In this document: positions 7,741-33,255 of the stretch, piece by piece | Layout: each line of letters starts with the position of its first letter | Numbering within the stretch: the first letter of the stretch is position 1 | Source of the DNA: Candidatus Bathyarchaeota archaeon RBG_16_48_13 | GTDB lineage: Archaea > Thermoproteota > Bathyarchaeia > RBG-16-48-13 | Reading direction: 5' to 3' | NCBI GenBank assembly: GCA_001775995.1 | Contig: MEZH01000013.1 | Location: 1-37,654, forward strand | DNA: 37,654 nucleotides | Made by a program: the position numbers and the translations under genes | The notes under the pieces: model-generated | The model's input: only the letters and a program-made list of their open reading frames with translations | Databases searched by the model: none | Told to the model about the DNA's origin: nothing

Positions 7741-7780
7741 AATTGAAACGCCAACATTGTTCTATAGCAGACCTGAGACT

Positions 7781-9734: not shown

Positions 9735-9754
9735 CATTTGGGAGCGCGCGCGAT

Positions 9755-15233: not shown

Positions 15234-16322
15234 TTACTTTCGCTGAGTCATTCCTTCCATGCCGGCTAGCTGGTTTGGCCTAGACAATTTGGTGCGCTTT
15301 ATCTCCTCTATTAGTGCTGGCACAATATCTCGATAATCACCTACGACACCATAGTCGGCGTACTTGAAAATGGGAGCCTCAGAATCCGTGTTGATGGCCA
15401 TGACGCTTTTTGCTTCCCTGATTCCGAAGACATGTTGAGCTGAACCGCTAATTCCAACCGCAATGTACAGTATTGGTTTCACCGTTTTTCCTGTTTGTCC
15501 TATTTGGCGGTCTGCCGGCAGCCAGCCAGCGTCTACTGCTTTTCGTGACCCTGCCACAACCCCCCCAAGTTGGGAGGCAAGCTCCTCCAAAAGTCCAATG
15601 CCCTCTGGGCCTCCGATCCCCTTACCAGCGCTTACAATGCAGTCTGCTTTCTCCAGAAGCACTCTACCTAGTCCCAGACTTTGACTATTGACCAAACGGC
15701 CTCTGGGTTTTGGAACGTCAACCTCGGCCCTGATTATTTTTCCCATTTTCCCCTCATCGCGCTTGGGAAGAGGAAAGACGTTTGGTCGAGCGGTGGCTAT
15801 TTGGGGTCTCCTAAAGGGTGTTCTGATGGACGCTAACATGATAGCTCCAAACGGAGGCCTTATCTGAAGGACGTCTCTGCTTTCGGAATCCACGTCAAAT
15901 CCGGTGCAGTCAGCAGTTATCCCCACCCTCAAGATGTTCGCAATGCACGGCGCCATCTCTCGGCATCTCATGGTTCCAGCTATCAGTATGAGTTCAGGCT
16001 TGAAGCGCTTGGCGAGTTGGGCCATCACTGACGCATATATTTCTGGAAAGTAGGTGCCCAACGATGGTTCATCCACAAGTATTGAACGATCAGCACCATG
16101 GTAGAACATTTCCCTAGCGACTTTAGAAATTTTGGACCCTAAGATCACTCCCGTCACATCAACATCGAGCTTAGTCGCTAATTCCTTCGCTGGTGTGAGC
16201 ATCTGTAGGGACGCCTCAGAAATTCGTCCCCCGTGGATGTCGCCTAATACCCATATTCCCCGGTAATCTTTCTTTTCGACGTCCTCCCACTCAGGGCAAG
16301 ACGATTCCTTTTCAGACATCAC
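15234..16322 (-). CDS. fixB: Electron transfer flavoprotein alpha subunit (FixB-like)
   Basis: ETF-alpha C-terminal FAD domain: DCIVSAGKGIGGPEGIGLLEELASQLGGVVAGSRKAVDAGWLPADRQIGQTGKTVKPILYIAVGISGSAQHVFGI...INTDSEAPIFKYADYGVVGDY. Confidence 0.95.
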   Translation of the reverse strand: MMSEKESSCPEWEDVEKKDYRGIWVLGDIHGGRISEASLQMLTPAKELATKLDVDVTGVILGSKISKVAREMFYHGADRSILVDEPSLGTYFPEIYASVMAQLAKRFKPELILIAGTMRCREMAPCIANILRVGITADCTGFDVDSESRDVLQIRPPFGAIMLASIRTPFRRPQIATARPNVFPLPKRDEGKMGKIIRAEVDVPKPRGRLVNSQSLGLGRVLLEKADCIVSAGKGIGGPEGIGLLEELASQLGGVVAGSRKAVDAGWLPADRQIGQTGKTVKPILYIAVGISGSAQHVFGIREAKSVMAINTDSEAPIFKYADYGVVGDYRDIVPALIEEIKRTKLSRPNQLAGMEGMTQRK

Positions 16323-17161
16323 CTATGGGCCCCTCCGATAAGGTTGATGTCTTCATCCGCGTACTTCTGCATCAGCCACTTTGCTGCCTTTCCGGCATCA
16401 GGGTCCATGAAGACCTCGCGTTTGCGCTTGACCTCAGGAGTGTAATCGATCTTGGAAACCCATGTGGGTGATCCCTTCAGCCCTACACAGTTTGGGTTGA
16501 GCTTCAAGATTTCGTTGGTAACAATCTCAATAGGCTTCTCTGCTTTAGCTCTGATTTTGTAGATCAGTCTCACAGGCCTCGGTTCCCTGCTCTTCATCGC
16601 CACTCCTAGAACAGCTGGCAGAGGGAGATCGTAAATGGTCTTCTCATCCTCAAGCCACCTTTCGACAGCTATGAATCCGTTTTCTTTGATCTCGACGCTT
16701 CTCACGTAATAGAGGTATGGGAGGTCTAGCCATGAAGCAGTCTGCGCGGCTATGTGCGCGGTGGAGCTGTCAATCGTCTCCTGGCCGAAGATCACAAGAT
16801 CTAACTTGCCGCGCTGATTGGAGATCCTCTTTACGGCGTGAGCAAGGACGTAGCTCGTTGCCAGTGTATCAGCACCACCGTATATTCTGTCAGACACTAG
16901 AATTGCGCTATCTACCCCCATACCCAAGACCTGCTCCAGTCCCTCAATCGCTGAAGGAGGAGCCATGCTTAACGCATTCACTTCACCGCCATATCGATCC
17001 CTCAGATCTAGGGCAAACTCCACGGCGTCTAGGTCGTGAGGATTAACGATGCTGGGGACGCCCTCCCTTATCAATGCCCCCGTCTTGGGGTCAAATCTGA
17101 CATTCGAAGTATTGGGAACCCACTTGATGCCCACGAGGATCTGCAAACCCAACCTCTTCAT
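16319..17161 (-). CDS. fixA: Electron transfer flavoprotein beta subunit (FixA-like)
   Basis: ILVGIKWVPNTSNVRFDPKTGALIREGVPSIVNPHDLDAVEFALDLRD...GQETIDSSTAHIAAQTASWLDLPYL. ATG at 17161 preceded by AAGGGGCAT; ORF extends to 17176. Confidence 0.95.
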   Translation of the reverse strand: MKRLGLQILVGIKWVPNTSNVRFDPKTGALIREGVPSIVNPHDLDAVEFALDLRDRYGGEVNALSMAPPSAIEGLEQVLGMGVDSAILVSDRIYGGADTLATSYVLAHAVKRISNQRGKLDLVIFGQETIDSSTAHIAAQTASWLDLPYLYYVRSVEIKENGFIAVERWLEDEKTIYDLPLPAVLGVAMKSREPRPVRLIYKIRAKAEKPIEIVTNEILKLNPNCVGLKGSPTWVSKIDYTPEVKRKREVFMDPDAGKAAKWLMQKYADEDINLIGGAHR

Positions 17162-17172
17162 ATGCCCCTTTC

Positions 17173-17475
17173 TCAAGTGAATCTGTATTGAATACCCTTA
17201 CCGCTTCTTGGATAGTTCCAGCTGATTGCATTTTGTGGGCAGACAATCCTGCATGTCCCGCACTCCAGACAACCTGAATAGCTGAACAGGACTTTTCCAC
17301 CTAGTAGATCGTAGCATTTGGCTGGACAGAGATCTATGCAAGGTTTGGTTTCGCAACCGATGCAACGATCAAAATTCACCGATATGTGCGGTGTCTCCTC
17401 CACGTCATAAAGGTCGACCTTCAGAATGTCGTCCACGTTGACGGGCTTTTTCGTGAGGTCATCCTTTTGGGTCAT
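17173..17475 (-). CDS. fixX: FixX-type ferredoxin partner of ETF-QO
   Basis: CIGCETKPCIDLCPAKCYDLLGGKVLFSYSGCLECGTCRIVCPQNAISWNYPRSGKGI; two Cys motifs. Start ATG at 17475 (MTQKDDLTKK) overlaps the fixC end. Confidence 0.92.
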   Translation of the reverse strand: MTQKDDLTKKPVNVDDILKVDLYDVEETPHISVNFDRCIGCETKPCIDLCPAKCYDLLGGKVLFSYSGCLECGTCRIVCPQNAISWNYPRSGKGIQYRFT

Positions 17476-18785
17476 AATGTTCTCCCGATCTTGTACATGT
17501 CTTTGATCGCCGTCCAAGCGTCTGGGCCTACATCCTTCTGGGCGCCTCTGAGCGCTTTCCAAATGGTTGGACTTTCGAGTCCGATGTTGAATATTCTCCC
17601 CAAACCACTGTTAACCAGCCTTGGATATTGATCAAAGAAGTGAGGGTTGCGTCTGATGTATTCCAGTCCATTGTGTTTCCTTAACTCTCTGCCGATGAAT
17701 GATTCTTCCACCCGCCGACCGTATGCTGAGAGCATTTCGGACGTGAAGTCACCTTCTGCATGTGCCTTTGTGAAGGTTTCAGCCGCAAGGTAGCCCGAGT
17801 AGGCCGCCAAGTCCACACCCCGAATGGTCATGCCATTATTGAGAAGGACCCCAGCAGCATCGCCGACTACCAACAGCCCAGCGCCGCTCAATCTTCTGGG
17901 CATGAATCCACGCCAATATTCGGGTACCAGTTTTGCAGAGTATTCCAGCAGTTCCCCATCCCTCCACAGATGCTTGAGTTTAGGGTGAAGTCTAAAGTCC
18001 TCAAGAAGTCTGGAAATATGCCCGTTAGTTCTCTTGACGGCGTGAGAAAGAAACAGAACAAGACCAATGCTGACGCTGTCCCTGTTGGTGTAGACGAATG
18101 CACCTCCAGGTATATATCTGGTAACGCTACCAAGAAGAATCCATGCCATGCCCTCATCTTCCAGGCCAAACCTCTGGTTGACTCGCTCCGCGTCGAGCTT
18201 GATCGTCTCCTTCAATCCTATCGCGAGATCCTCTTGGCGTGGGACGTTCATTTGCCAAGCGCCTTCAAGAAGAAGCCTGTTAACGCCCTCGGCGTCGATG
18301 ACAGTGTCGGCGTAAACGGTGTCAGGTCCGGCCTGAACGCCTATCACCTTTTCTTTTTCGACTACCAGCCTGTCCACCCTCACCTCAGTCGCCACCAAAG
18401 CGCCGGCTTCTTCCGCTTTAGCCCTCATCCAGTTGACAAGTTCAGGCAGATACGTCGTGAAACTCTTGGATTCTCCGCCCCTGTATTCGATCGAGGTGAG
18501 TCCTTCATCAGAGACGAAGCTGAGTCTTTCAGCCTTTACCCATCGATGCACGGGGGCATCCTTCCTCAGCGATGGAAAGATTGCCTCCAGCGGTTCTGAA
18601 TAAACGCGGCCACCATACATGTTCTTGGTGCCAGCTCTTCGGCCCCGATCTATCATCAGCACCTTGAAACCCTTGCGAGCCAAGGTGAATGACGCCGAGG
18701 ATCCGGCAGGCCCAGCCCCAACGACGATTGCGTCGAACCTGTTGGTTGAAGGACTCGCGTTGGGGGTTGAGTGTTCGGTTGACAT
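17472..18785 (-). CDS. fixC: FixC / ETF-quinone oxidoreductase-like flavoprotein
   Basis: FDAIVVGAGPAGSSASFTLARKGFKVLMIDRG; GLLVVGDAAGVLLNNGMTIRGVDLAAYSGYLAAE; FixC-type organisation with fixX directly downstream. Confidence 0.94.
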   Translation of the reverse strand: MSTEHSTPNASPSTNRFDAIVVGAGPAGSSASFTLARKGFKVLMIDRGRRAGTKNMYGGRVYSEPLEAIFPSLRKDAPVHRWVKAERLSFVSDEGLTSIEYRGGESKSFTTYLPELVNWMRAKAEEAGALVATEVRVDRLVVEKEKVIGVQAGPDTVYADTVIDAEGVNRLLLEGAWQMNVPRQEDLAIGLKETIKLDAERVNQRFGLEDEGMAWILLGSVTRYIPGGAFVYTNRDSVSIGLVLFLSHAVKRTNGHISRLLEDFRLHPKLKHLWRDGELLEYSAKLVPEYWRGFMPRRLSGAGLLVVGDAAGVLLNNGMTIRGVDLAAYSGYLAAETFTKAHAEGDFTSEMLSAYGRRVEESFIGRELRKHNGLEYIRRNPHFFDQYPRLVNSGLGRIFNIGLESPTIWKALRGAQKDVGPDAWTAIKDMYKIGRTL

Positions 18786-18801
18786 TACACGGTTACCTGG
18801 G

Positions 18802-18808
18802 AAAAAAA
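18802..18808 (-). terminator. T7 tract between the six-TM gene and fixC
   Basis: CCCCCTTTTTTTCCC on the minus strand, in the 33 nt gap between the 18819 stop and the fixC start at 18785. Confidence 0.3.
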
Positions 18809-18818
18809 GGGGGAGAAG

Positions 18819-19421
18819 TTATGTGGCTGGAGCTGGTGGTTTGAGATGTCCAAATGTGGTATTTGCCCCTAAGTATAGCCAAGCCGCGGCATAGGCTATG
18901 GCGCCAATCGAGAAGAGCAACCTGAGCCATTTATTGTCACTGTGGGTAGCGGGAACCGAGAGAAACGTTGCTGCGGCCACCGACAAGTAGGCCAGAGCAC
19001 TCTTCAATGGGTCTGAGGTCATTCCATAGGCAAGAATTGAATATGCATCGACAACTAGGTAGGCGCCCAGCACGGCAGCGGAGTAAGAGACTGCTTTCAA
19101 CCCTCTATTCCAGAACAGCGCTGCTGAAAATCCCATGAGATTCAGGCCACCAAGGGCAGCGACCCCGCCAAAGAGTATGTTGGGACCTCCGCCTGGCGAA
19201 GTAAAGATCCAATTGAAGAGAATATGTGTGCCACTAAGGAAAAGAAATAGTCCGTTCAATCCAATAGCTATCGCTAGCCCCCTGCTCATGTTGTGTCCAG
19301 ATTCTTCGATGGCGTCGGTGGACGCCCTGTAAGGCAGTTTCCACAGGGCTATCCCTGACAGAATTCCGCTCGCTGCGATGCTGTACATCATAGTGTCAAG
19401 TAGGTCAAAAGGTGGTGCCAA
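18819..19421 (-). CDS. Six-TM membrane protein, DUF981/COG3374-like
   Basis: 200 aa, about six hydrophobic segments; FDLLDTMMYSIAASGILSGIALWKL...GLFLFLSGTHILFNWIF; TTG start with GGAGG SD at 19431-19435. Confidence 0.65.
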   Translation of the reverse strand: MAPPFDLLDTMMYSIAASGILSGIALWKLPYRASTDAIEESGHNMSRGLAIAIGLNGLFLFLSGTHILFNWIFTSPGGGPNILFGGVAALGGLNLMGFSAALFWNRGLKAVSYSAAVLGAYLVVDAYSILAYGMTSDPLKSALAYLSVAAATFLSVPATHSDNKWLRLLFSIGAIAYAAAWLYLGANTTFGHLKPPAPAT

Positions 19422-19461
19422 ATTTTTTATCCTCCAAGTATTCCGCTTACTTAATTGAAGC

Positions 19462-19472
19462 CACTATATATG
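19462..19472 (-). promoter_or_regulatory. TATA-like box for the six-TM/fixCXAB unit
   Basis: Minus strand ACATATATAGTG about 41-51 nt upstream of the TTG start at 19421, in a 232 nt gap downstream of nuoN. Confidence 0.4.
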
Positions 19473-19653
19473 TATTTTCAATAAATTGTCGCGGATAAAC
19501 GAAAATGATTTTACACATTGTAAATGAGAATGCCTTAAGATCACGAACCCACTGGGGAAATCGTCCATCCATTTGTGGGCAGCGGACCGTATTGAATCAT
19601 GTCATGCGAATTCTTCAAGAGCTTCCAAGCTCAAATTGACGAGTAGTCACTGA

Positions 19654-21090
19654 CTAAAGGATAAGCAATGACGCCAACACTGGGGCTAGTCCTAGGCCCA
19701 GGGCTACAGTTAGCACAGTGGTCAAAACAACAGCTATCACTGCGGGATCTCGGGGGTTCTCCCTCACCTCGTTGCGGTCATCTGTTCCTCGAGTTGATAG
19801 GACGTATCGTATTATCTGCGCGTAGTAACCGACAGACACACCGGTATTGATTACTGCGATCAGGGCAAGCCAGGGGGCTATCTCTATGACTGAAAAGAAG
19901 AGGTACATGAATTTGCTCCAGAAGCCTATTAGAGGGGGCATGCCAATGAGGCTGAACACCAATATGACGATGCAGGATGATAAGATCGGCATTTTTCTCC
20001 ATAAGCCAGCAATGCCATCTAGATCCGTCCCCAGACCTTTCTCGGCCAAATAGGATAAGGCGACAAAAATGCCTGTTGTAGCCAGGGCGTATGTTGCCAG
20101 ATGTAGGGCAATTCCCTGAGCCCCGATGGTCGCGCTGACTCCGCTGCCGCCAGCTGCGAAACCGACCAACATGTATCCTACATGCGCAAGGCTGCTGTAT
20201 CCCATCATTTTTTGAAAGTTTCTCTGAATCAAAGCCGCTACGTTGCCGAATGTCATCGTCACGATTGCGAATGCAGCGAATAGGAAAAGCCAACTGACGC
20301 CCAATTTCGGAGCGAAGGGATAGACTATCCGCAGAAGTGCGGCGATGCCTGACACCTTCACTATGCCCGCAATATAGGAAACCAAGATTGGATTTACGCC
20401 TCCGTATACATCAGGTAGCCAACCGTGGAAAGGGACAATTCCGACTTTGAAGCCGAAAGCTGCAACGATCATTATGATGGCTGTCAATATCGCTTGCATG
20501 TTGGCGGGGGAGGCGGCTTGCACTATCGTGCGTATGTCGGTGGAACCGGTCACGCCGTATAGGATTGCAATCCCAAAAAGCAGGAAGGCAGAGGCGACAA
20601 TGCCCATCAAGGCGTATTTGGCAGCACCTTCGAGAGAAGCCTCATCTTTCTTTATTCCAACGAATGCGTAGGAAGCCACGGAAACCAACGCCCAAGCCGC
20701 CAGAAGAAGAACCAAATCGTTAACTGCTATTATATAGTAAACCCCTACTGTGATAATAAGGATCAGAGAGAAATAGCTGGGAGCGGTCGTCCATTTTGAG
20801 GTATGGGTGAAAGAGGCAAGCGTTACAAAAAGGGCTCCAAGACTGGTAATAGTGAATAGAAAGGCGCCGTAGGCGTCTATCTTCAAGGCCCCATCGTAGA
20901 CGTACGTCGGGGGGTTGCCCAATGTCAGAGACAGCAATCCAATTGAAAGAGCCAGAGCGAGAAGAATCGCGGCTAGACACAACCAACGGCTTATTCTCTT
21001 CTTCAGATAGTATTCAATCGTCGGCGTGGCTAGTCCGATACCTCCGAGCAACAACCCAAGTATATCCAATAGGATTTCAACGGTCAACAA
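19654..21090 (-). CDS. nuoN: NADH-quinone oxidoreductase subunit N-like
   Basis: Proton-pumping antiporter-like subunit: VGIVPFHGWLPDVYGGVNPILVSYIAGIVKVSG, MMGYSSLAHVGYMLVG, GMPPLIGFWSKF. TTG start, AGGA SD. Confidence 0.95.
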   Translation of the reverse strand: MLTVEILLDILGLLLGGIGLATPTIEYYLKKRISRWLCLAAILLALALSIGLLSLTLGNPPTYVYDGALKIDAYGAFLFTITSLGALFVTLASFTHTSKWTTAPSYFSLILIITVGVYYIIAVNDLVLLLAAWALVSVASYAFVGIKKDEASLEGAAKYALMGIVASAFLLFGIAILYGVTGSTDIRTIVQAASPANMQAILTAIIMIVAAFGFKVGIVPFHGWLPDVYGGVNPILVSYIAGIVKVSGIAALLRIVYPFAPKLGVSWLFLFAAFAIVTMTFGNVAALIQRNFQKMMGYSSLAHVGYMLVGFAAGGSGVSATIGAQGIALHLATYALATTGIFVALSYLAEKGLGTDLDGIAGLWRKMPILSSCIVILVFSLIGMPPLIGFWSKFMYLFFSVIEIAPWLALIAVINTGVSVGYYAQIIRYVLSTRGTDDRNEVRENPRDPAVIAVVLTTVLTVALGLGLAPVLASLLIL

Positions 21091-21096
21091 GTCTTC

Positions 21097-23313
21097 CTAA
21101 ATCACCCCCAACAAGAGCAACAGAAGGAGTGCGTTGAACCCTAGCAAGAGGAGCAGAAGGTAGTCGTTGACCCTGCCTGTCTGAATCCTTCTGAAAGCGT
21201 TTGAAAGAAGGAGCGACGCCTTGGCGACCACAAGGTTATAGCCTTTATCTATGACTGCGGTTTCAAAGGCCTTGAATATGGAATCAGAAGCAAGCACGAA
21301 CGCTCTTGGCATCGCGCGATGATAGCCTCTGTCTATTACGCCTGTTTCAAAATATTTGGAGCCCACCGAAGAAGCCTTGGCTGCAAACCAGGGTATGATT
21401 CTATGATAAACGCGATCCACAACCCCTACATCCACGTATTTGAAAAGTCCATTCGCCAAATTGCTGGCTCCTTGGACAAAGATCTTGTAGTAGATCGAAT
21501 TCAAGTACCACCTATTGTACAGAAAACTCTGAATTCCCCTGGAGACCTTGTTCTTAGCCAATCTTTCGCCTATTTTCAAGTTTGATCCTCGTTTTCCATA
21601 TGTCAGGTAGGCCGTGCCCACGCCCACGGAAACCATGGCCAAGGACGTCCCCGTGAGAAGAGGGTCAAGCTCAACGCCAATGCTGAGGGGTTTCTCGGTC
21701 ATCGCCAACGCGTTCTTTATCAGTGCAGAGGAGATATCGCCTCCAACGAAAATCCAGACTACGCCAATCGCAACGGTCACAATTGCTAGCAATGCGTAGG
21801 GGGCGAGCAGCATTGGGTTTGCCTCATGCAATTCATTTTCCCCGGCCATGTGCTTTACTCTTTCAGAGGGCTGTGTCAGGAAGGTCTTCATTATGAGTCT
21901 GATCGAGTAGAAGGCTGTAAGAGCGATGGTTATCACCATCAACATCAACGGGACGAACAAATTGGTCTGATACACTATCTCTAGAAGATGATCCTTCGTC
22001 CAGAAACCCAGTAGAGGAGGTACTCCTGAGAGGCTTAGCGCCGCGATGAGCATGGTTATGAAGGTGACCTTCATGAACTTCGACAGGCCCCCCATATCGT
22101 CCATGTACCTAGATTCCACCGAGTGGATTACGGCTCCAGCCGCGAGAAACAGCGACGCCTTGAAGATTGCGTGGCTCATCAGGTAATTGAAGGCTGCAAT
22201 GAAGCCGCTGCTGAAATCAGCGATTAGCCCCGAAGCGCCACATGCCATGAAGATCAAGCCCAATTGAGAGGCTGTTGAAAACGCCAAGACCAATTTGAGC
22301 TCTTTCGCCACGATTGCCTGCGTCGCCATCAGGAAAGCTGTGAACGCTCCCAAGTAGACGATGACCGTAAAATAGAGTCTCACGTCGGCGGCAGCGCTGG
22401 GCACGATAAGGTTCAGTTCCCTCGATGCAAGATAGATTATGGGCGTGAATCGAAGCATGAAGAAAATGCCTGCTTTCACCATTGTTGCAGCGTGTATTAA
22501 CGCGCTGACGGACGTTGGGCCGGTCATAGCTGTGACGAGCCATTCGTGAAAAGGAAATTGGGCGCTCTTGGCCATGGCGCCTAGCGTAAAAGCGAACATG
22601 AACGGAAGCAGCATCCCTCTTACCGCCAGTTCCTGACCCCACAGTGCAACATTGCTAGCCATCGCGGGAATGCTTAGCGAATTCGTAAGCATGTAGATCA
22701 CCCCAATGCCGGCAATTAATCCGACATCCCCCAATCTCGTGAAGACGAGGGCTCGAACACCACTGTGGCTCGGTGAGAAGTCCATGGGGATACCCAAGAC
22801 CTTTCTGCCTTCGTCCCCCACCCACTTGTCCTTCTGATCGGTGAACCAATGCCCTATGAGGGCGTAGGAGGCTAAGCCTGTGCCTTCCCATCCAATAAAC
22901 ATCAGAAGTAGATTTCCTGCCATGACTATGAGTAGCATGCTTGCGGTGAAGAAACTGAAAAAAAACCAGTACCGAGTGAGGCCCGCGTCACCTTCCATGT
23001 ATTTGAGGCTGTAGAAGCCTATGAGAAAACACAGCCACGTGACGATAAAGGCCATGAATGCGCCCAAGGAATCGACAAATATCTCAACCTGAACCTGAAG
23101 CGATGGCACCCAAGGAACGGAAAAATGAACTACCCCACTTTCAAGGACCGTCTTCAGCAACAGCGTTGAGGAAAACGCGCTGAGGAATAGCATGCCGACA
23201 GCAACATATCCTCGCCATTTATCCAACTTCAAAACTGACAGAAGAAGTACGATGGCCGCTCCAACATAAGGGGCCGCCCATGTTGCGTTGGCTATTATTC
23301 CGTCTAGTATCAA
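21097..23313 (-). CDS. nuoL: NADH-quinone oxidoreductase subunit L-like, with extended C-terminus
   Basis: WEGTGLASYALIGHWFTDQKD, AQFPFHEWLVTAMTGPTSVSALIHAATMVKAG, GVPPLLGFWTKD; C-terminal RRIQTGRVNDYLLLLLLG. TTG start. Confidence 0.96.
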   Translation of the reverse strand: MILDGIIANATWAAPYVGAAIVLLLSVLKLDKWRGYVAVGMLFLSAFSSTLLLKTVLESGVVHFSVPWVPSLQVQVEIFVDSLGAFMAFIVTWLCFLIGFYSLKYMEGDAGLTRYWFFFSFFTASMLLIVMAGNLLLMFIGWEGTGLASYALIGHWFTDQKDKWVGDEGRKVLGIPMDFSPSHSGVRALVFTRLGDVGLIAGIGVIYMLTNSLSIPAMASNVALWGQELAVRGMLLPFMFAFTLGAMAKSAQFPFHEWLVTAMTGPTSVSALIHAATMVKAGIFFMLRFTPIIYLASRELNLIVPSAAADVRLYFTVIVYLGAFTAFLMATQAIVAKELKLVLAFSTASQLGLIFMACGASGLIADFSSGFIAAFNYLMSHAIFKASLFLAAGAVIHSVESRYMDDMGGLSKFMKVTFITMLIAALSLSGVPPLLGFWTKDHLLEIVYQTNLFVPLMLMVITIALTAFYSIRLIMKTFLTQPSERVKHMAGENELHEANPMLLAPYALLAIVTVAIGVVWIFVGGDISSALIKNALAMTEKPLSIGVELDPLLTGTSLAMVSVGVGTAYLTYGKRGSNLKIGERLAKNKVSRGIQSFLYNRWYLNSIYYKIFVQGASNLANGLFKYVDVGVVDRVYHRIIPWFAAKASSVGSKYFETGVIDRGYHRAMPRAFVLASDSIFKAFETAVIDKGYNLVVAKASLLLSNAFRRIQTGRVNDYLLLLLLGFNALLLLLLLGVI
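21190..21447 (-). repeat. Three diverged tandem copies (27-31 aa) in the NuoL C-terminal extension
   Basis: LFKYVDVGVVDRVYHR... / YFETGVIDRGYHR... / AFETAVIDKGYNL..., read from the protein. Confidence 0.7.
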
Positions 23314-23322
23314 GGAGATCTT

Positions 23323-24876
23323 CTACCTTAGCAAGCTCCTGACAAGATTGGAAAGTGGGTCTATGAAAATCGCCGGCCAAAAGAAGAGCAGTATTCCAAT
23401 TATCGCTATCACTATGATAGGAAACAGGAGGTCTCGTCTTTCCTTCGTGGGTTCATTGGAAATCTCTGGAGAGGGAGGCCCGAAGAAGATGCGTTTGATT
23501 GTGATGAAAGAATATGCCGTTGAGAGCCCTATGGCGACCAGCAGACCTATCACGAGGAGCACGAATGCAGTCGCGCCAATTTCGCTGGCCCGAGCTACTG
23601 CTCCAAAGACTATGAGCACTTCGCTCCAGAGGCCGAGCGAGGGCGGCACGCCAGTTATCTGCATGAACCCAATGAGGGCCAAGGCGGCAGTTACCGGCAA
23701 TCGAACAGCTAGTCCACCCATCTTCCGTATGCTTCTTAACCCGTGAAGCTGAACGATTAGAACACCCGCAACAGAGAAGAGCACAGCCTTTCCGACAGCA
23801 TGTGTTGCGTATTGAAGCATGGCTCCTGAGACACCGAGGGTGTTGAGACTTGAGATTCCCAGGAGCAAGTAGCCCATCTGGGAAATGCTGGAATATGCCA
23901 GCATCCTCTTGAAATCATCTTGAGCAAGCGTCATCAAACCTCCATAGATCATTGTTATCAGCGACAGCACAATCAGATACACCGAGATCGAAGCAAAAAC
24001 GGTCGGAAACAATAGGTAAGCGATCCTCACTAGAGCATAGCCACCAATTCCAATTAGGTTAGGCGAGAGAAGGGCCGAAACAGGGGTTGGAGCCTCAGCG
24101 TGAGCGTAGGGCAACCAAATATGAACGCCGAAGACTGCCATTTTCACCAATAGGCCAACAATCAGAATCAAGGCAACATAGAAAATAATGTTCTGCGGGA
24201 GAAGTTCGCCTATTCCGATGTTGAAGGTCAAGGTTTGCATATTCAGTATGTCAAAAGTCTTTGCGTTAAATCCTACAGTTATCGCTCCAATTAAGAAAAG
24301 CAGAGCACCCACGTGAGTCCAGATCAGATACATCAGCGCAATCCTCTCTCGAGCTCCGTATCCATAAAATGCAATTAGGAGAAAACTGGGGACCAGAGTC
24401 AATTCAAGGAATATGTAGAACTCCGCGAGGTTAGTGGATAGGGCAGTCCCAAGCATGGCTGACGCGAACATGATGTAGAGCATGTAATAGATTCCCCAGG
24501 ACGGTTCGTGTGTGCCCTCTTTCTGCATGTCCTCAAAGCGGTGCTCCATGTAGGGAAAAGAGAAGACAGCCACCATGGTTGTGACTAGGACTATGGAAAA
24601 AGCAATGGGCCCGCTCAGTCCATCCAGCAACATAGAAAAGGAACCCAAAAAGGGCTGACCAAAATATGGGGGGTCTACGACACCTTCGTTGAGTCCTGGG
24701 AAGAACGTGAACCCAACGATAACAATCAGCGGATAGAGCAAGAGCAACGTGCTCAAAGTCGCCACCGTCTTGGCTCGAATTCTCCTTCCGATTACGGGTA
24801 GGAGCACTGAAGCCAAAAAGGGTACCACAACTGAGGTTAGTAGTATAGGTTGGTCCAGTTTCAACATTTTTTTCAC
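23323..24876 (-). CDS. nuoM: NADH-quinone oxidoreductase subunit M-like
   Basis: FGVHIWLPYAHAEAPTPVSALLSPNLIGIGGYALVRI, MLAYSSISQMGYLLLGI, GVPPSLGLWSE. Confidence 0.96.
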   Translation of the reverse strand: MKKMLKLDQPILLTSVVVPFLASVLLPVIGRRIRAKTVATLSTLLLLYPLIVIVGFTFFPGLNEGVVDPPYFGQPFLGSFSMLLDGLSGPIAFSIVLVTTMVAVFSFPYMEHRFEDMQKEGTHEPSWGIYYMLYIMFASAMLGTALSTNLAEFYIFLELTLVPSFLLIAFYGYGARERIALMYLIWTHVGALLFLIGAITVGFNAKTFDILNMQTLTFNIGIGELLPQNIIFYVALILIVGLLVKMAVFGVHIWLPYAHAEAPTPVSALLSPNLIGIGGYALVRIAYLLFPTVFASISVYLIVLSLITMIYGGLMTLAQDDFKRMLAYSSISQMGYLLLGISSLNTLGVSGAMLQYATHAVGKAVLFSVAGVLIVQLHGLRSIRKMGGLAVRLPVTAALALIGFMQITGVPPSLGLWSEVLIVFGAVARASEIGATAFVLLVIGLLVAIGLSTAYSFITIKRIFFGPPSPEISNEPTKERRDLLFPIIVIAIIGILLFFWPAIFIDPLSNLVRSLLR

Positions 24877-25181
24877 CCTTTGAACTTTCTCAGCTCATAG
24901 ACATCCAAACGCTTCTTGTGTTGGAACATCAGTATTGCGATCGAAACCATTATTCCCACATCGGCAACCGCGATGCCAATGGCCAGCAGTGCTATAACCC
25001 CTCCGGCTGCAGGGGAAGTTGACGATGAGGCGAGGGTAAGAAGCATGAGCACAGCAGCATTGAAATTGATCTCCGCGGACAAGAGCATCCGAAGCATATT
25101 CCTCTTTGTGATTATCCCGTATAGACCGATCCCAAACATGGCAGCTGATAGTCCCAACAATATGTATATTTCTTCCATCAA
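24873..25181 (-). CDS. nuoK: NADH-quinone oxidoreductase subunit K-like
   Basis: YILLGLSAAMFGIGLYGIITKRNMLRMLLSAEINFNAAVLMLL...GIAVADVGIMVSIAILMFQ. Confidence 0.94.
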   Translation of the reverse strand: MMEEIYILLGLSAAMFGIGLYGIITKRNMLRMLLSAEINFNAAVLMLLTLASSSTSPAAGGVIALLAIGIAVADVGIMVSIAILMFQHKKRLDVYELRKFKG

Positions 25182-25675
25182 ATCTCTTCCCGTCTAGCCA
25201 GTGTTATGGCTTCAATTAGTGTCGTGACCAAGGTCAACGCTGCGACAACTAACGCGAACCAGTATTTCTGAGTCAATAAACTCGCGAGCTCACGATAGCT
25301 AATGTTGATTGGTGCCAAGGTCTTCCCGAAATATTCACCGAATATTACTAGAAGTAGAAGAAACGTCAACAACACAGAGACGGCAGCGATGATCCTGAGC
25401 GGGCGTTCAATCAAAGGGGTCTCCTCGAACATAGTTATGGAGAAGAGAATGAATACAACGGCTGCGCCTATATACACTGCCACGTGAAAGATTGCCACAA
25501 ATGTGAATCCTAATAGTGCGAAAATGGACGCGATAGATATGCCCATAATCCCCAGAAAGAATGCTGAGTAGACCAAAGATTTGTGCTCAACTACGATGAG
25601 CGAAGACAACAAAGTCACTGCAGCCAGCACGACAAGGATCATAAGGCTGGGATCGAAAAGTTCAACAGGACTCAT
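25178..25675 (-). CDS. nuoJ: NADH-quinone oxidoreductase subunit J-like
   Basis: LVVLAAVTLLSSLIVVEHKSLVYSAFFLGIMGISIASIFALLGFTFVAIFHVAVYIGAAVVFILFSITMFEE; ATG at 25675 (MSPVELFDP). Confidence 0.92.
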   Translation of the reverse strand: MSPVELFDPSLMILVVLAAVTLLSSLIVVEHKSLVYSAFFLGIMGISIASIFALLGFTFVAIFHVAVYIGAAVVFILFSITMFEETPLIERPLRIIAAVSVLLTFLLLLVIFGEYFGKTLAPINISYRELASLLTQKYWFALVVAALTLVTTLIEAITLARREEI

Positions 25676-26135
25676 ATCTGAGACCTCTTTTCTCGTCAAA
25701 TAGGGGTTTAACCCTCGGCTTATCCTCAATGACTGGATCTTTACTGAAATCTTCTGGTTTCAATACCTGCTCACCAAGAGTGTAGCATGCTGCATCGTGA
25801 GAACCAGACATTTCGAGAGCGTCAACAGGGCAAATATCAACGCAGAACCCGCAGAATATACATCTTTGGTATGTTATTCCGGGATATTTTCTGACATCAA
25901 CTTTGACCATTTTTAATGCGTTTGACGGACAAATGCGGGCGCATAATGTGCAGCTTATGCATATGTCGATGCGAAGCTTTAACATTCCTCTGTAATTCGG
26001 TCCAAGGTCTTGAAGAACCTCAGGGTATAGTACGGTCATTCGAGGTTTGAAGATGTGCTCTATTCCAGACCTGATTGCTTGCATGTGTCCTGTCAGGCCA
26101 AGCAGCTTCCCCGCTCTACGATCTTTGGGTTTCAT
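25662..26135 (-). CDS. nuoI: NADH-quinone oxidoreductase subunit I-like (2x[4Fe-4S])
   Basis: CISCTLCARICPSNALKM...CIFCGFCVDICPVDALEMS; ATG at 26135 (MKPKDRRAGK). Confidence 0.94.
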   Translation of the reverse strand: MKPKDRRAGKLLGLTGHMQAIRSGIEHIFKPRMTVLYPEVLQDLGPNYRGMLKLRIDICISCTLCARICPSNALKMVKVDVRKYPGITYQRCIFCGFCVDICPVDALEMSGSHDAACYTLGEQVLKPEDFSKDPVIEDKPRVKPLFDEKRGLRYESC

Positions 26136-26137
26136 AA

Positions 26138-27154
26138 CTAGAACCCCAGCACCCACACAATGCCGAGTGAGAGAGCCACAGACGCCACAGACAATACGAA
26201 GAGGGTGTGCCATCCCAGTTTCAGCACTTGGTCTATACGGAATCTTGGGTATATGCTCCTCATGAATACGCATAAGCCCATCACAAGGAGACCTTTGACA
26301 AAAACGGCCACTCCCGGAAGAATTGGATTCAAGGTCAAGGGCCAAATAAGAGGATTCCAGCCCCCCAAAAAGACCTCGGCGAAGAACAAGCTTAGGACGC
26401 TCAGTTTTGCGTACGATGCCCCAAGACAGAGCACGAAAATTATGCCGCTGTACTCGGTGTACGGTCCAATCACTAGTTCGCTCTCGGCCTCGGCAACGTC
26501 GAAGGGAAAACGCGCCGTCGTCATGAGCATCGCAACAAAAAACGTTATGGCCGCCAATGGGTTGAGCGCGATCCCCCAGAGACCAGATGATTGTCTTCCC
26601 ACGACTTGTACCAGATCTAGGGTGTCGTATGCTACGGCCATAGCCAAAATGGAAACAAACATCGGAATCTCATAAGCCATCATTAGGTAACCGTCTCGCA
26701 GGCTTCCGATGAAGGAGAACTTGTTGTTGCTTGACCAGCCCAGGAGAAGCATGAATATTGGAGTTATCGTCAGCAGCGCCAGGACCAGGAGAAGACTCAA
26801 ATCGCTGAAAAAAGCGGCGTAGCTGTTGCTTAGTGGAATGGCTACCACCGGCAACATAGATAGCGTGAACAAGAAAATTGGAGAAAGGATGAATGCTTTT
26901 TTATCAGATCCCTTCGGAATAATGATCTCGGTGAAGAGAAACTTCAGCAGATCCGCTACTAATTGAGGTAGGCCTCCCAATGATTTCAAAACGTATAGGG
27001 GCCCATACCTCAACTGAACTTTAGCTGTGAGCTTTCTCTCGAACCATGCAATGAATATGATGACAAGGAATGTTGTCAGAAGCCCAGGAAAAATAAGGGG
27101 GATGATGATCGTGGGGGACAGTAATATCTGCAGCAACTGCTCAACAACATTCAT
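26138..27154 (-). CDS. nuoH: NADH-quinone oxidoreductase subunit H-like
   Basis: ERKLTAKVQLRYGPLYV, PFDVAEAESELVIGPYTEYSG, RSIYPRFRIDQVLKLGW. Confidence 0.96.
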   Translation of the reverse strand: MNVVEQLLQILLSPTIIIPLIFPGLLTTFLVIIFIAWFERKLTAKVQLRYGPLYVLKSLGGLPQLVADLLKFLFTEIIIPKGSDKKAFILSPIFLFTLSMLPVVAIPLSNSYAAFFSDLSLLLVLALLTITPIFMLLLGWSSNNKFSFIGSLRDGYLMMAYEIPMFVSILAMAVAYDTLDLVQVVGRQSSGLWGIALNPLAAITFFVAMLMTTARFPFDVAEAESELVIGPYTEYSGIIFVLCLGASYAKLSVLSLFFAEVFLGGWNPLIWPLTLNPILPGVAVFVKGLLVMGLCVFMRSIYPRFRIDQVLKLGWHTLFVLSVASVALSLGIVWVLGF

Positions 27155-27157
27155 GAT

Positions 27158-28318
27158 TTATCTGTCAGCCTCCGGTGGAAAGTAGTCTAGACTACCGTAA
27201 ACGGCTGGGATATCAGCCAATTTCTGGCCCAGCAGTGCGTGTTTGAAGGCTATCAAGTTCTTGAACGAGGGCGTCACGATCCTGAATCTATAAGGGTGAG
27301 TCGAACCATCGCTCACTAAATAGTGGAAGAGTTCGCCTCGGCTCGCTTCGACGCGTGAAACTGCCTCACCTTTTGAGGGCTTTAGCCCAGAAAACAGAGC
27401 AGGAAATTTCACTGAACTCCTCTTTTCAAACCGTGTTCTTGAAGGTACAAGATCCAAATATCTGTCTGCAAGGATCGAGCCGTCAGGTATTTTGCCCAGG
27501 ATTTGCCTTATCATGCTGATGCTTTGTTCGATTTCGCCTATTCTTACCAGAAGTCGAGCATGGGCGTCGCCTTCATCTCTGACTACTACCTCAAAGTCCA
27601 AGTCAGGGTAGATGCAGTAGGGCTCAATTTTCCTTACATCGTAAGCAATGCCGGAAGCTCTGAGGTTCGGACCGACTACCCCGATTCTAGCCGCATCAAT
27701 CCTATTGATGACTCCAACTCCTTTCAGGCGAGCCAATGTCACTGGATTGTGGACGAAGATGCGGTCATAGTCTTTGAGCCTTCTCTCCATGTAACTGAGG
27801 GCCTTCAGGGCGTCATTCCTGAAGTCTTGAGGCAGGTCTCTTCTGACGCCACCAGGTATGATATATGAATAGCTGAGTCTGGCCCCAGTAAGGCGTTGAG
27901 CTAGCTCTATGAATGGCTCCCTGTCCCCAAATGCCCACATCAGCATGGTGGTGGAGCCGATCATATTCCCGTGAATGCCCATTCCGTAGAGGTGACTATG
28001 AATTCTGTTGATCTCGGCCAACAATATCCTCAAGTATTGTGCACGAAGTGGCGCATCTATTCCGAGCAGTCTTTCTAATGCTAGGACGTAACCTAGATTG
28101 TGATTGGCTGTATCAGGCAACGAAGTCCTTTCCACTAATGGTATGATTTGCACGTAAGTCTTAGTTTCGGCTATCTTCTCTACAGCTCGATGCACGTAGC
28201 CGATATTTGGCTCGAAATTGAGGATAACGTCTCCATCCATCTCGGCGACAAGCCTCATATGCCCAGAGCCGGGGTGTTGAGGCCCAATTAGGAGTTCTAA
28301 GGTTTGCTCTTCACTCAT
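27158..28318 (-). CDS. nuoD: NADH-quinone oxidoreductase subunit D-like
   Basis: GPQHPGSGHMRLVAEMDGDVILNFEPNIGYVHRAVEKIAE...EINRIHSHLYGMGIHG; PEADR C-terminus (no [NiFe]-ligand CxxC pairs visible). Confidence 0.96.
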   Translation of the reverse strand: MSEEQTLELLIGPQHPGSGHMRLVAEMDGDVILNFEPNIGYVHRAVEKIAETKTYVQIIPLVERTSLPDTANHNLGYVLALERLLGIDAPLRAQYLRILLAEINRIHSHLYGMGIHGNMIGSTTMLMWAFGDREPFIELAQRLTGARLSYSYIIPGGVRRDLPQDFRNDALKALSYMERRLKDYDRIFVHNPVTLARLKGVGVINRIDAARIGVVGPNLRASGIAYDVRKIEPYCIYPDLDFEVVVRDEGDAHARLLVRIGEIEQSISMIRQILGKIPDGSILADRYLDLVPSRTRFEKRSSVKFPALFSGLKPSKGEAVSRVEASRGELFHYLVSDGSTHPYRFRIVTPSFKNLIAFKHALLGQKLADIPAVYGSLDYFPPEADR

Positions 28319-28752
28319 GCGTCTATTCCTTCGGTCCTTATCGTGTAGCTCTTCCTGAGTGGTGGCTCGCCTTCGAAGTCCTCCGGAAGCAGGAGTCTTG
28401 CCATCGCTTCACGTCCTCCGAAGTTTATTCCCATGAGGTCCGTGGTCTCTCTTTCGAGAAACTCAATACTTGGCCAAACGGCGACCAGCGTGTGGATATT
28501 GGGCTCCTGACGACTGACCGTAGTTCTGATTTCAAGGATGGTCTTCGCCAACTCCAAGTCTTCAAATGACGAAACATGATAGATGACATCTATTCTGTTC
28601 TCTTCTGGGTAATCTGTGGCGGTAACCGATATCACATGATCAAATTTCAAGTTTTTCAGCAGGTGGGCTGTTTCCAATATCTTTGAGGCGTCAACCGTGA
28701 TCGATAACCCATTCTGTTTCGTTAAGAGGACCCTTGTCACAATGCCCTTCAA
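28315..28752 (-). CDS. nuoC: NADH-quinone oxidoreductase subunit C-like
   Basis: VISVTATDYPEENRIDVIYHVSS...VAVWPSIEFLERETTDLMGINFGGREAMARLLLPEDFEGEPPLRKSY; TTG start, true N-terminus uncertain. Confidence 0.92.
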   Translation of the reverse strand: MKGIVTRVLLTKQNGLSITVDASKILETAHLLKNLKFDHVISVTATDYPEENRIDVIYHVSSFEDLELAKTILEIRTTVSRQEPNIHTLVAVWPSIEFLERETTDLMGINFGGREAMARLLLPEDFEGEPPLRKSYTIRTEGIDA

Positions 28753-28780
28753 CTTGTCAGAGATCAGGCCAGAAAGTTCT

Positions 28781-29269
28781 TCAGTTTTCAGGGTGAGGTG
28801 TCACCTTTTTTCTAATTTTTTCTTGCTCCATCGTCAATGATTTCAGAATTGCCTCAGGCCTTGGAGGGCATCCAGGTATGTAAACATCAACGGGGAGTAT
28901 TTCATGAGGTCTGACTATGTTGTAGCTGTTCCAGAAAATCCCGCCATCGATGGCACATGCACCCATAGCAAAAACGAACTTGGGCTCAGGCATCTGTTCG
29001 TAAACAATCTTTGCCGCTTCAGCCATTTTCTTGGTTACAGTTCCTTCTATGAAAAGAACATTGCATTGGCGCGTCCCCACGAAGGGCAGGAAGCCGTATC
29101 TTTCGGCATCGTATCTTGGGCAGAAACTTGCCGCAAATTCTGACCCACAGCAAGCCGTAGTGAAGTGCACTGGCCAAAGAGAGAATGATGTCCCCCAATC
29201 TTTGAGGGAACTCAAAATCTTTTGTCGGGCTAACGCCCTCGACAATCTTCTTATGACCGCATCGAACAT
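28781..29269 (-). CDS. nuoB: NADH-quinone oxidoreductase subunit B-like
   Basis: SLWPVHFTTACCGSEFAASFCPRYDAERYGF...VFAMGACAIDGGIFWNSYN...VDVYIPGCPPRPEAIL. ATG at 29269 (MFDAVIRR); ORF extends to 29302. Confidence 0.95.
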   Translation of the reverse strand: MFDAVIRRLSRALARQKILSSLKDWGTSFSLWPVHFTTACCGSEFAASFCPRYDAERYGFLPFVGTRQCNVLFIEGTVTKKMAEAAKIVYEQMPEPKFVFAMGACAIDGGIFWNSYNIVRPHEILPVDVYIPGCPPRPEAILKSLTMEQEKIRKKVTPHPEN

Positions 29270-29271
29270 GT

Positions 29272-29673
29272 TCAGCGTTCCTTTCTTTCCTTGATTTTCC
29301 ACAGCTCAATCCTATTCGCCGCATCCAAACCAAAAACTAGGGGGGGAGCGAGCATGAGCATGATCAATACGAAGAGTTGGACGACGCTATAGTACATCTC
29401 GTGCGTTTCCATCAAGAGAAGAAACAAATAGAAGAAAATGGGCTCAACGGTGAGAAAAACCACCAAGTAGGCATAGTATTGCATGGTGAACCAACCTCTC
29501 CCTCTTTTGGAGGGGGGGTTACCCGCTTCAAACCTCGCCTCCTTTATGGTCGAGTGTTTTGGAGGGGCAACGAGTCGGCTTATGGCGTAGCTCAGCAAGC
29601 CGGCACCCAAGCCACCGGACAGAGCCAAGAGAAAGGTGACCAAAGCATTATAGTCCAACGCGAGTTGACTCAC
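29272..29673 (-). CDS. nuoA: NADH-quinone oxidoreductase subunit A-like
   Basis: FEAGNPPSKRGRGWFTMQYYAYLVVFLTVEPIFFYLFLLL; GTG at 29673 preceded by GGGGGC is a likely start (ORF extends to 29748). Confidence 0.9.
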   Translation of the reverse strand: MSQLALDYNALVTFLLALSGGLGAGLLSYAISRLVAPPKHSTIKEARFEAGNPPSKRGRGWFTMQYYAYLVVFLTVEPIFFYLFLLLMETHEMYYSVVQLFVLIMLMLAPPLVFGLDAANRIELWKIKERKER

Positions 29674-29702
29674 AAATTGCCCCCATAAATATCTCGAATA
29701 GG

Positions 29703-30611
29703 TCAGAGAACTCCCTTGTATACCCGCACCGCCGGGCAACCCATGCATTGACCCTCAATGAATTGGACGCATTCAGCACATTTTCTACCACATGGTGCTA
29801 TATCTTCCTTCGCAGGGAAGACCCTTATATGGAATGCATCAGTCACGAGCGGCGGCTCAGAGCTGTGAACCGAGACGAGTTCTGTATCTTTGATGCCCTT
29901 AAAACTCTCAACGGTCGAGTTCAGGGTGCTCTGATCTTCGCCCCAGAGGAGAGTGAGTATGTTTGCTTTGTCAGTAGGCTTCAAGATCATCAGCACACGC
30001 GGGCAACTGAGCAGCATTTTCTCCAGTTTTTGGCGCGCATCAGAGTTCTTGCTCTCGAACGCTGCCAAAGTTGTCTTCATGCCCAGTTCGCTAAGGTTGA
30101 TCCCTGGCTTCAAGGAAAGGATCTTTCCGCTTACTAGACGATTCAATTTTGCTATTACGGTTGGTCGAGAGGACCCGATTTCCCTTGAAATTTGGAGGAC
30201 GGGCTTCCTGGAATCTCTTCGAAGTGCTTCAATGATCTTGAGGTCGATGGCATCTAGTTTCGTGGCACGACCCGGGACACTTGCATGAATTGTTCCATGC
30301 AATTTAGCATATTGAAGGGCTTCGTTCAACGAATAATCCGTTCTTTCGAGCTTGAGTCCTACCTTGGAGAAAAGCAAGGCTGCTATTAGATTTTCAATTT
30401 TAGTCGAGCCGACTCCGAAAATCGTTCTCAGTTCGTCGCTGATAGCTCTCTGGTTATTTTCGATTTCGTCACGGCGCAGAAGATTCTTTCCTTCGATGTG
30501 AACCAGGAAACTTTCTGCCGTCTTCTCATCGAGCATGATGTTCAAAGCCTCTCGAATGGAATCCAACACAAGTCCATCGAAGGTTTTGACCAGTTTTGAA
30601 GTGGTCTTCAT
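29703..30611 (-). CDS. Transcriptional regulator: NitrOD5-like N-terminus, Lrp/AsnC HTH, Cys-rich C-terminal tail
   Basis: N-terminal LRTIFGVGSTKIENLIAALLFSKVGL; HTH LDAIDLKIIEALRRDSRKPVLQISREIGSSRPTVIAKLNRLVSGKIL; C-terminus CGRKCAECVQFIEGQCMGC. Confidence 0.85.
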   Translation of the reverse strand: MKTTSKLVKTFDGLVLDSIREALNIMLDEKTAESFLVHIEGKNLLRRDEIENNQRAISDELRTIFGVGSTKIENLIAALLFSKVGLKLERTDYSLNEALQYAKLHGTIHASVPGRATKLDAIDLKIIEALRRDSRKPVLQISREIGSSRPTVIAKLNRLVSGKILSLKPGINLSELGMKTTLAAFESKNSDARQKLEKMLLSCPRVLMILKPTDKANILTLLWGEDQSTLNSTVESFKGIKDTELVSVHSSEPPLVTDAFHIRVFPAKEDIAPCGRKCAECVQFIEGQCMGCPAVRVYKGVL

Positions 30612-31318: not shown

Positions 31319-32311
31319 TTGGGCGACGAAATGTTAGAGAAGCCTGCAAATGCGTTGCCAACGGCGGATATTTTGGGGCTACGAAGCCTAGTCAACCGCC
31401 ACATGAAAGGTCTCCTATCTTCCATCGGACACCTGAGTCTTAGTCCTCAACTTGATTATTGTCTCCTCTCACCTGGAAAGAGACTCAGACCCTTAATAGT
31501 CCTCCTTTCGACCTATGCCGTTGGAGGCGATTTGGAAAAATCTCTACCGCTTGCGCTTTCCATCGAGGCGCTGCACACGGCCACGTTGGTCCATGATGAC
31601 GCCATAGATCGTGATCAAGATCGGAGAGGCGTTCCCACGGTTCACACTAGGTGGGGTGTTGGCGATGCCATACTTGTTGGTGATTCTCTGATCTCTCTTT
31701 CCATAAGTTTGGCCGCGGACTACGGCCGAGAGATAGTGAAAATCATCGCTAACACAGGTTTGGAACTCTCCGATGGAGAACATGCCGAGGCATCATCACA
31801 GTTGAAAATATCCACTGAAAATCAATACTACGCAAGAATCCGAGGTAAATCTGCAGCCCTTTTCAGGGCCGCGGCCAGAGTCGGGGCGTTGGCGGGGGGC
31901 GGTAACGGGCGTGAAGTCGACGCCTTGGGAGAATTCGGCGAGAGATTCGGCTTAGCCTATCAGATCAGGGACGACATTCAAGACCTGATGGAGAAGGGAA
32001 GTGAGATGCCCCGAGACCTGCGGAATAAAGTCCCCACGTTGCCGATCCTTCATTTGTATCGTAATGGAGACGCCGGGGTCAGGAGGCTTCTGGACAGGGG
32101 CTTCACTGAGGGCTTTTCGATTGCAGAAGCTCGCCAAATAGTGGTCGAACTCGAATCGAGTGGTTCGATTCTCTATTGCGAGCAAAAAATCGAGGAAAAT
32201 CTCGGAGCGGCCCTGAGAGCGTTGGCCGAGATCAGGTTCGCCAAGGCAAAGAATCTCCTAACTGAGTTGTTTGAGGTCGCTATTCCACATGTGGGGATGC
32301 AACCGCCATGA
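31319..32311 (+). CDS. Trans-isoprenyl (polyprenyl/geranylgeranyl) diphosphate synthase
   Basis: GKRLRPLIVLLSTYAVGG, LVHDDAIDRDQDRRGVPTVHTRWGVGDAILVGDSL, LAYQIRDDIQDL. TTG at 31319 or ATG at 31331. Confidence 0.93.
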   Translation: MGDEMLEKPANALPTADILGLRSLVNRHMKGLLSSIGHLSLSPQLDYCLLSPGKRLRPLIVLLSTYAVGGDLEKSLPLALSIEALHTATLVHDDAIDRDQDRRGVPTVHTRWGVGDAILVGDSLISLSISLAADYGREIVKIIANTGLELSDGEHAEASSQLKISTENQYYARIRGKSAALFRAAARVGALAGGGNGREVDALGEFGERFGLAYQIRDDIQDLMEKGSEMPRDLRNKVPTLPILHLYRNGDAGVRRLLDRGFTEGFSIAEARQIVVELESSGSILYCEQKIEENLGAALRALAEIRFAKAKNLLTELFEVAIPHVGMQPP

Positions 32312-33255
32312 AGCCGATTCACGGATTTGCGCCGTCCAGTCTGAAGGTCAAGATCCCCTTGTTGCTGGCTGAGTTGCGGGCACCATTTCTAACCGCAAGC
32401 CTGGCTTCCGTGTTCTTAGGAACGGCGATGGCTTGGGTGTCCTGGAAGAATATTGATCCAATATTCTTGCTGCTGACCCTGGCCGGAACGTTTTGTCTTC
32501 ACTCGAGTGCGAATGTGATCAACGATTATTTCGACTACAAGAGTGGCTGTGACGGGCTCAACAGAGATTCTATTCCCCCATTTACCGGAGGAAGTGGCCT
32601 CCTTGTCAGCGGCGCCCTGCGCCCGAATGAGGTGCTTGCGCTCGCTTCGAGCCTATTCCTGACAGCAGGGGCAATTGGCCTTTACCTCGCAATGATCAGA
32701 GGGTGGATCATCCTAGTCCTAGTCGCCGTCGCCGTTCTTTCCGGATATTTCTACACGACTCACCTCGCAACCAGAGGTGTTGGAGAGCTCGTCGTAGGTC
32801 TTTGCTTCGGTCCGCTTCTTGCATTCGGAACATATTATGTCCAGACCAACTCCTTCGCGCTGGGACCTCTGTTAGCGGGTTTGCCGCTGGGCCTACTTGT
32901 GGCAGCCATACTTTGGATAAACGAAATACCTGATTACAGAGCTGACAGCCTAGTAGGGAAGAACACGGCCGTCGTCAGGCTCGGGAAAAGAAGAGCTGCT
33001 CAAGTTTACGTATGCATTGTCGGCCTCGCGTACGCGATCATCGGGTTCGGCATCCTAGCCCGTGTCCTCCCGGTAACATCAGCTCTAACCTTCTTGTCAC
33101 TCCCCTTGGCACTCAAAGCCGCGAGAATAGCGAACACTAGTTATGATTCGAAGGAGTTGAGACCCGCAAATGGACTCACCATTTCGACGCACCTCGTCGT
33201 TGGAATCCTCTTGACAACTGGATACATCCTGCTGCCTCTTCTCCCTGCCATCTAG
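32308..33255 (+). CDS. menA: UbiA-family prenyltransferase, MenA-like
   Basis: VINDYFDYKSGCDGLNRDSIPPFTGGSGLLVSGAL, INEIPDYRADSLVGKNTAVVRLGKRRA; overlaps the upstream synthase (ATGA-type). Confidence 0.85.
   Translation: MKPIHGFAPSSLKVKIPLLLAELRAPFLTASLASVFLGTAMAWVSWKNIDPIFLLLTLAGTFCLHSSANVINDYFDYKSGCDGLNRDSIPPFTGGSGLLVSGALRPNEVLALASSLFLTAGAIGLYLAMIRGWIILVLVAVAVLSGYFYTTHLATRGVGELVVGLCFGPLLAFGTYYVQTNSFALGPLLAGLPLGLLVAAILWINEIPDYRADSLVGKNTAVVRLGKRRAAQVYVCIVGLAYAIIGFGILARVLPVTSALTFLSLPLALKAARIANTSYDSKELRPANGLTISTHLVVGILLTTGYILLPLLPAI

Follow-up and report, generated by a model that had tools for sequence, protein, structure and literature searches.

A 37,654-nucleotide stretch of DNA from Candidatus Bathyarchaeota archaeon RBG_16_48_13 (contig MEZH01000013.1, assembly GCA_001775995.1; hereafter the window) encodes on its minus strand an eleven-subunit complex I, specified by nuo genes, and an electron-transfer flavoprotein (ETF) complex of the FixABCX, or EtfABCX, family. 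Our analysis suggests that FixABCX belongs to the electron-bifurcating type and that complex I is of a type most likely driven by ferredoxin. We favor, with moderate confidence, a reading in which the two complexes are coupled through shared pools of ferredoxin and quinone, and in which their genes are separately inherited modules whose adjacency is specific to this lineage. The genes run nuoA-B-C-D-H-I-J-K-M-L-N, a gene for a six-helix membrane protein of family DUF981, and fixC-X-A-B, with clear family matches throughout; an initial annotation, made from the sequence alone, had given this list, order and strand correctly, as Pfam matches for every gene confirm. The genome to which the window belongs comprises 848,615 bases on 16 contigs and is rated 75% complete, so that each absence reported below for the whole genome carries a risk of error of about one in four. 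Genomes available for comparison included none from the same family, 12 from the order and 257 from the class.

FixABCX resembles bifurcating complexes

Four subunits, diagnostic residues and phylogeny all support assignment of FixCXAB to the membrane-associated, NADH-oxidizing, bifurcating (group 2) EtfABCX type. In searches of the PDB, the Thermotoga maritima EtfABCX structure (7koe) was the best match for FixB (EtfA-type, 15234-16322; 7koe_B, E value 1.6e-79), for the ETF:quinone oxidoreductase-like FixC (17472-18785; 7koe_C, 2.1e-54, with an ETFQO_UQ-bd match) and for FixX (17173-17475; 7koe_D, 3.4e-20). FixA (EtfB-type, 16319-17176) best matched the bifurcating CarD (6.1e-49), followed by 7koe_A (2.2e-44), and non-bifurcating ETFs scored more weakly by at least 26 orders of magnitude for FixA and by about 15 for FixB. 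According to PMC10734219, the residues associated with the bifurcating flavin adenine dinucleotide (FAD) are RxGV and SPTxV (GSPTxV) of FixA together with, in FixB, the RPxFGG motif, whose Arg is essential. They are kept here as REGV and GLKGSPTWV in FixA, which would be the expected site of the bifurcating FAD, and as the Arg of RPPFGA in FixB. The latter motif differs from the RPxFGG of the EtfABCX reference in its last residue, Ala for Gly, and is the commonest form among other archaeal members.

In a tree of FixA plus FixB, built by a short search and with reference ETFs that are all bifurcating, the window fell within a 38-row archaeal FixABCX clade (support 100) as sister to Acidilobaceae and Desulfurococcales (98), and ETFs from its own class fell elsewhere, in a clade with CarDE, Bcd-Etf and LctBC. 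We also considered an ordinary ETF serving acyl-CoA dehydrogenases. This is disfavored by the 7koe matches, the bifurcation residues and the FixABCX clade, and because the acyl-CoA dehydrogenase family PF02770 had no match in the whole genome, where control families were matched; nor was a second FixA homologue found there. The initial annotation had proposed a bifurcating FixABCX whose FixA and FixB should group with bifurcating ETFs, and on both counts it is borne out, the tree comparison being one with bifurcating references.

The resemblance to T. maritima EtfABCX extends to all four subunits, the bifurcating-FAD residues, the two [4Fe-4S] Cys motifs of FixX and the quinone reductase FixC. 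An archaeal member is found in Pyrobaculum aerophilum; PMC10734219 gives a proposed catalytic cycle for it and cites work in which the complex was expressed and studied. Unlike the T. maritima and P. aerophilum systems, the fix genes of the window lie beside those of complex I, with DUF981 between.

Complex I lacks a detectable NADH arm

All 11 core subunits, NuoA-D and NuoH-N, are encoded in the window. The genes are nuoA (29272-29748; PF00507, E value 2.9e-9; this is the longest open reading frame, and the true start is probably further in), nuoB (28781-29302; PF01058, 1.7e-28), nuoC (28315-28752; PF00329, 4.3e-31), nuoD (27158-28318; PF00346, 2.3e-90, with NF004739 above cut-off), nuoH (26138-27154; PF00146, 2.5e-85), nuoI (25662-26345; Fer4_7, 1.7e-13; the reading frame overlaps nuoH, and the true start lies further in), nuoJ (25178-25729; PF00499), nuoK (24873-25181; PF00420), nuoM (23323-24876; PF00361, 6.1e-61), nuoL (21097-23313; PF00361 and PF00662, with TIGR01974 above cut-off) and nuoN (19654-21090; PF00361, 5.4e-57). 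NuoB keeps all four cluster-N2 Cys residues (C51, C52, C116 and C145), and NuoI keeps both CxxCxxCxxxCP motifs (at residues 129 and 162). Motif alignment found no CxxC pair in NuoD, which is therefore devoid of [NiFe] ligands; for this reason we regard nuo as encoding a complex I, and its interpretation as a group 4 [NiFe] hydrogenase is ruled out.

No genes for NADH-binding or F420 subunits were identified among the window proteins scanned. The initial annotation had remarked on the absence of NuoE, NuoF, NuoG and F420 dehydrogenase subunits, and a search of the whole genome extends this to NuoE (PF01257), NuoF (PF01512) and FrhB/FpoF (PF04432), none of which had a match although controls did; NuoG was not searched separately. 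The missing PF04432 also speaks against an F420H2 dehydrogenase (Fpo/Fqo). Since no other input modules were found, we propose ferredoxin as the donor: the complex would most likely oxidize ferredoxin and reduce quinone.

In subunits, gene order and motifs the complex is like the headless complex I of other Thermoproteota (Korarchaeota-like, Acidilobaceae and Desulfurococcales), and NuoD identity within this clade is 52-69%. What differs is the neighborhood, which consists of fix and DUF981 in the window, HdrACB-FrhB in the related genome G097 and an ABC transporter in a Methanodesulfokora genome.

Adjacency of nuo and fix is probably lineage-specific

The initial annotation took the adjoining nuo and fix genes for a candidate energy hub. 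On the hypothesis of a dedicated hub, the linkage would be selected and the two gene sets co-regulated, with FixABCX replacing the missing NuoEFG arm to yield an NADH:quinone pump. The two sets do follow one another directly on a single strand, and the searches turned up no further module through which NADH could enter. In G097, the sister operon has near it, in the same orientation, another possible ferredoxin-coupled module, HdrA2-HdrC-HdrB-FrhB; this could hint that feeder modules are interchangeable.

The organization of the array itself fits less well with co-regulation. Inside nuo, and inside DUF981-fixCXAB, genes overlap or are separated by at most 33 bp, with 4-bp overlaps at fixC/X (the fixX ATG lying over the fixC stop), X/A and A/B. 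The only larger gap is the 232 bp between nuoN and DUF981 (19422-19653), which includes the sole CATATATA of the window, a TATA-like box at 19472-19465, as well as a 30-base stretch that ranks with the most AT-rich of the window; GGAGG precedes the DUF981 start. Because of this gap and its TATA-like box, nuo and DUF981-fix are probably two transcription units, with a second promoter in the gap. A sigma-70 promoter scan carries no information for an archaeon.

We surveyed named loci around close FixB relatives and added 49 regions from other members of the phylum, giving 86 distinct archaeal fix loci after removal of duplicates; in 56 of these both flanks, and in 79 at least one flank, extended for 3 kb or more. 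The usual arrangement across these loci is fixCXAB, and in none of the 86 does fix adjoin nuo; linkage as an archaeal pattern is rejected. The view from nuo is similar. The five closest operons by NuoD identity are those of G097 (69%), G044 (61%) and the genomes of loci L033, L035 and L013 (63-64%). The first two have nuo of the same type and no close FixA, and the other three genomes hold both modules, with fix on a different contig from nuo. A tree of NuoB plus NuoD makes G097 the sister of the window (99), whereas FixAB has Acidilobaceae/Desulfurococcales as its sister; since their nearest relatives differ, nuo and fix appear to have been inherited separately and joined in this lineage. By a rough estimate, two given operons would adjoin by chance with a frequency of the order of 0.3-0.5% per genome, so that one case among dozens is unremarkable. 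Linkage as a sign of a hub is thus not borne out, and by the initial annotation's own criterion for refutation, linkage unique to one assembly, the claim has so far failed. We consider a dedicated hub unlikely. Our verdict is that two ordinary modules have been placed side by side in one lineage, an event that by itself says little about dedicated coupling.

It could also be asked whether the fix/nuo junction arose in assembly or binning, as the window is a single contig of a metagenome-assembled genome and there is no second assembly of the species. The tetranucleotide profile of the window correlates with that of another contig of the same genome at 0.845, above all 25 foreign loci compared, and the two halves behave alike (0.80 for fix and 0.83 for nuo). 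Mis-binning is disfavored by this composition, and we regard an artefactual junction as very improbable.

Neighboring genes

The DUF981 gene that heads the fix unit (18819-19421, minus strand; PF06168, E value 1.8e-22) does not belong to a conserved fix or nuo locus. The family is present in 49 of 398 genomes of the phylum, and in the loci searched it was never beside fix or nuo, lying far from fix wherever the two could be placed on a single contig. An AlphaFold model from an alignment of 24 relatives gave six confident helices (predicted local distance difference test score, pLDDT, 86), an earlier single-sequence model having been poor. The best PDB fold matches, the SatP and UreI channels (E value 0.02, template modeling score about 0.6), are too weak to name a function, and a literature search returned no paper mentioning DUF981. 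In several genomes of the phylum (loci L278, L287, L288 and L295; family code f42), DUF981 adjoins, in convergent orientation, a gene whose product, judged by eye, is like a UbiE/COQ5-type methyltransferase.

At the other end of the array, an AsnC/Lrp-type regulator gene (29703-30611, minus strand; PF13404) overlaps nuoA and is possibly a redox- or Fe-S-sensing regulator of nuo. Its product carries a Cys-rich C-terminal tail, CGRKCAECVQFIEGQCMGCPA. Elsewhere in the window, a large histidine kinase is encoded at 834-4064 on the plus strand; its N terminus carries a MEDS (DcmR sensory) domain, and it has several PAS domains as well.

Electron route and energetics

We infer the following route from gene content. 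FixABCX would oxidize two NADH, sending one electron pair at low potential to ferredoxin and the other, at high potential, through FixX and FixC to a menaquinone-type quinone. Complex I would then use the reduced ferredoxin pair to form a second quinol while pumping protons, the two complexes being linked only by common ferredoxin and quinone pools. A menaquinone-type acceptor is our best guess, because divergently upstream of nuoA lie two plus-strand genes, one for a polyprenyl diphosphate synthase (31319-32311; PF00348, E value 5.4e-50) and one for a MenA-like 1,4-dihydroxy-2-naphthoate prenyltransferase (32308-33255; TIGR00751, 105.5 bits against a cut-off of 102.15). In the related nuo operon of G044, likewise, nuoA is closely preceded by genes for a polyprenyl synthase and a MenA-type UbiA. 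The G044 run that lies directly upstream of nuoA (locus L169, 8122-13852, plus strand) contains the UbiA/MenA-type prenyltransferase, an ArsA-type ATPase, a B12-radical SAM protein, a geranylgeranyl reductase and the polyprenyl synthase.

Such a route is energetically allowed. With potentials of -320, -450 and -74 mV (PMC10734219), we calculate that 4 H+ can be translocated for every 2 electrons passing from ferredoxin to menaquinone until the proton-motive force reaches 188 mV, the corresponding limit for transfer from NADH to menaquinone being only 123 mV. By the same calculation, each turnover of the bifurcation reaction still yields about 232 meV.

Several observations weigh against the route. 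The MenA-like gene is the only evidence of menaquinone synthesis, and the futalosine-pathway family PF02621 was not found in the genome. NuoD lacks the His/Tyr pair of the canonical quinone site, with GS-GHMR and ERTSLPD in the places of AAHGVLR and DRLDYVS. That ferredoxin is accepted and quinone reduced by this complex I is itself something we infer from sequence. Finally, a second complex-I-like locus in the genome (L183, G000:C4:66000-85999, about 1881-11640) encodes nuoB-C-D-H-I on the plus strand, with a NuoD-like subunit bearing both CxxC motifs, and divergent NuoM/L/N/K-like genes; this is a [NiFe] group-4-like hydrogenase by its sequence, and it could be another sink for ferredoxin. 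As to NuoD, all aligned Thermoproteota relatives (L100-L111 and L130-L132) show the same replacement; the missing pair is a feature of the clade and not a peculiarity of the window. With the pair absent from every 11-subunit complex of Thermoproteota that was aligned, one may ask how these complexes bind quinone.

FixABCX might instead serve mainly in other ways: in reverse, confurcating electrons from quinol and ferredoxin to NAD+, or as a source of ferredoxin for biosynthesis or the group 4 hydrogenase; the ferredoxin used by complex I would then come from the oxidation of 2-oxoacids. The FixABCX reaction is described as reversible (PMC6085437), EtfABCX confurcation has been drawn for CO-grown Moorella (PMC13040438), and a CxxC-bearing [NiFe] group-4-like complex is encoded in this same genome. 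No sequence feature favors the reverse direction, however, and of the alternative routes for NADH into the quinone pool that we searched for, none was detected; we judge these roles improbable as the principal ones. The forward, pool-coupled route is our preferred reading. The indirect path for NADH-driven proton pumping that the initial annotation envisaged is plausible, given a bifurcating Fix complex, no detected NADH or F420 arm and a MenA-like gene; a reading of the linkage as the mark of a dedicated hub is not supported.

The route is not new, as both complexes and the circuit were known or proposed earlier. For Moorella thermoacetica, a 2026 study describes electron flow from EtfABCX to ferredoxin, headless complex I and menaquinone, together with confurcating use on CO (PMC13040438). 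That model is like ours in passing electrons from NADH to ferredoxin and menaquinone and then from ferredoxin to menaquinone with proton pumping; Moorella differs in being a bacterium and in having an nqo cluster flanked by genes for RNase HII and a protein of unknown function. Among archaea, Ca. Angelarchaeales combine in one genome an archaeal complex I lacking E, F and G, for which ferredoxin was the suggested donor, with FixABCX (PMC9038741). There, in contrast to the window, FixABCX is grouped with a branched-chain keto-acid dehydrogenase, and NuoM occurs in duplicate.

It is tempting to ask whether this complex I of Thermoproteota is a general-purpose pump driven by ferredoxin, with interchangeable bifurcating feeders coming to lie next to it as modular substitutes for the absent NADH or F420 arm. 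In G097 (locus L167, G097:C113:15000-34000), HdrA2-HdrC-HdrB and an FrhB/FpoF-like gene (3115-8081, minus strand) lie about 2 kb downstream of nuo on the same strand, with two PNPOx-type genes on the opposite strand between. If two sister operons each gained a different bifurcating neighbor, FixABCX here and an F420H2-type HdrA2-HdrC-HdrB-FrhB in G097, such modules might be interchangeable. The idea draws on these two single cases, and we hold it to be speculative and quite unlikely.

The present locus adds a single genome in which both modules adjoin, along with the caution that their linkage is not general in archaea. If the proposed coupling is correct, an archaeon whose complex I has no NADH arm could still use NADH to build up proton-motive force when its quinone is of low potential, and bifurcation, by giving complex I a stronger reductant, would make a pump of 4 H+ feasible at a higher proton-motive force.

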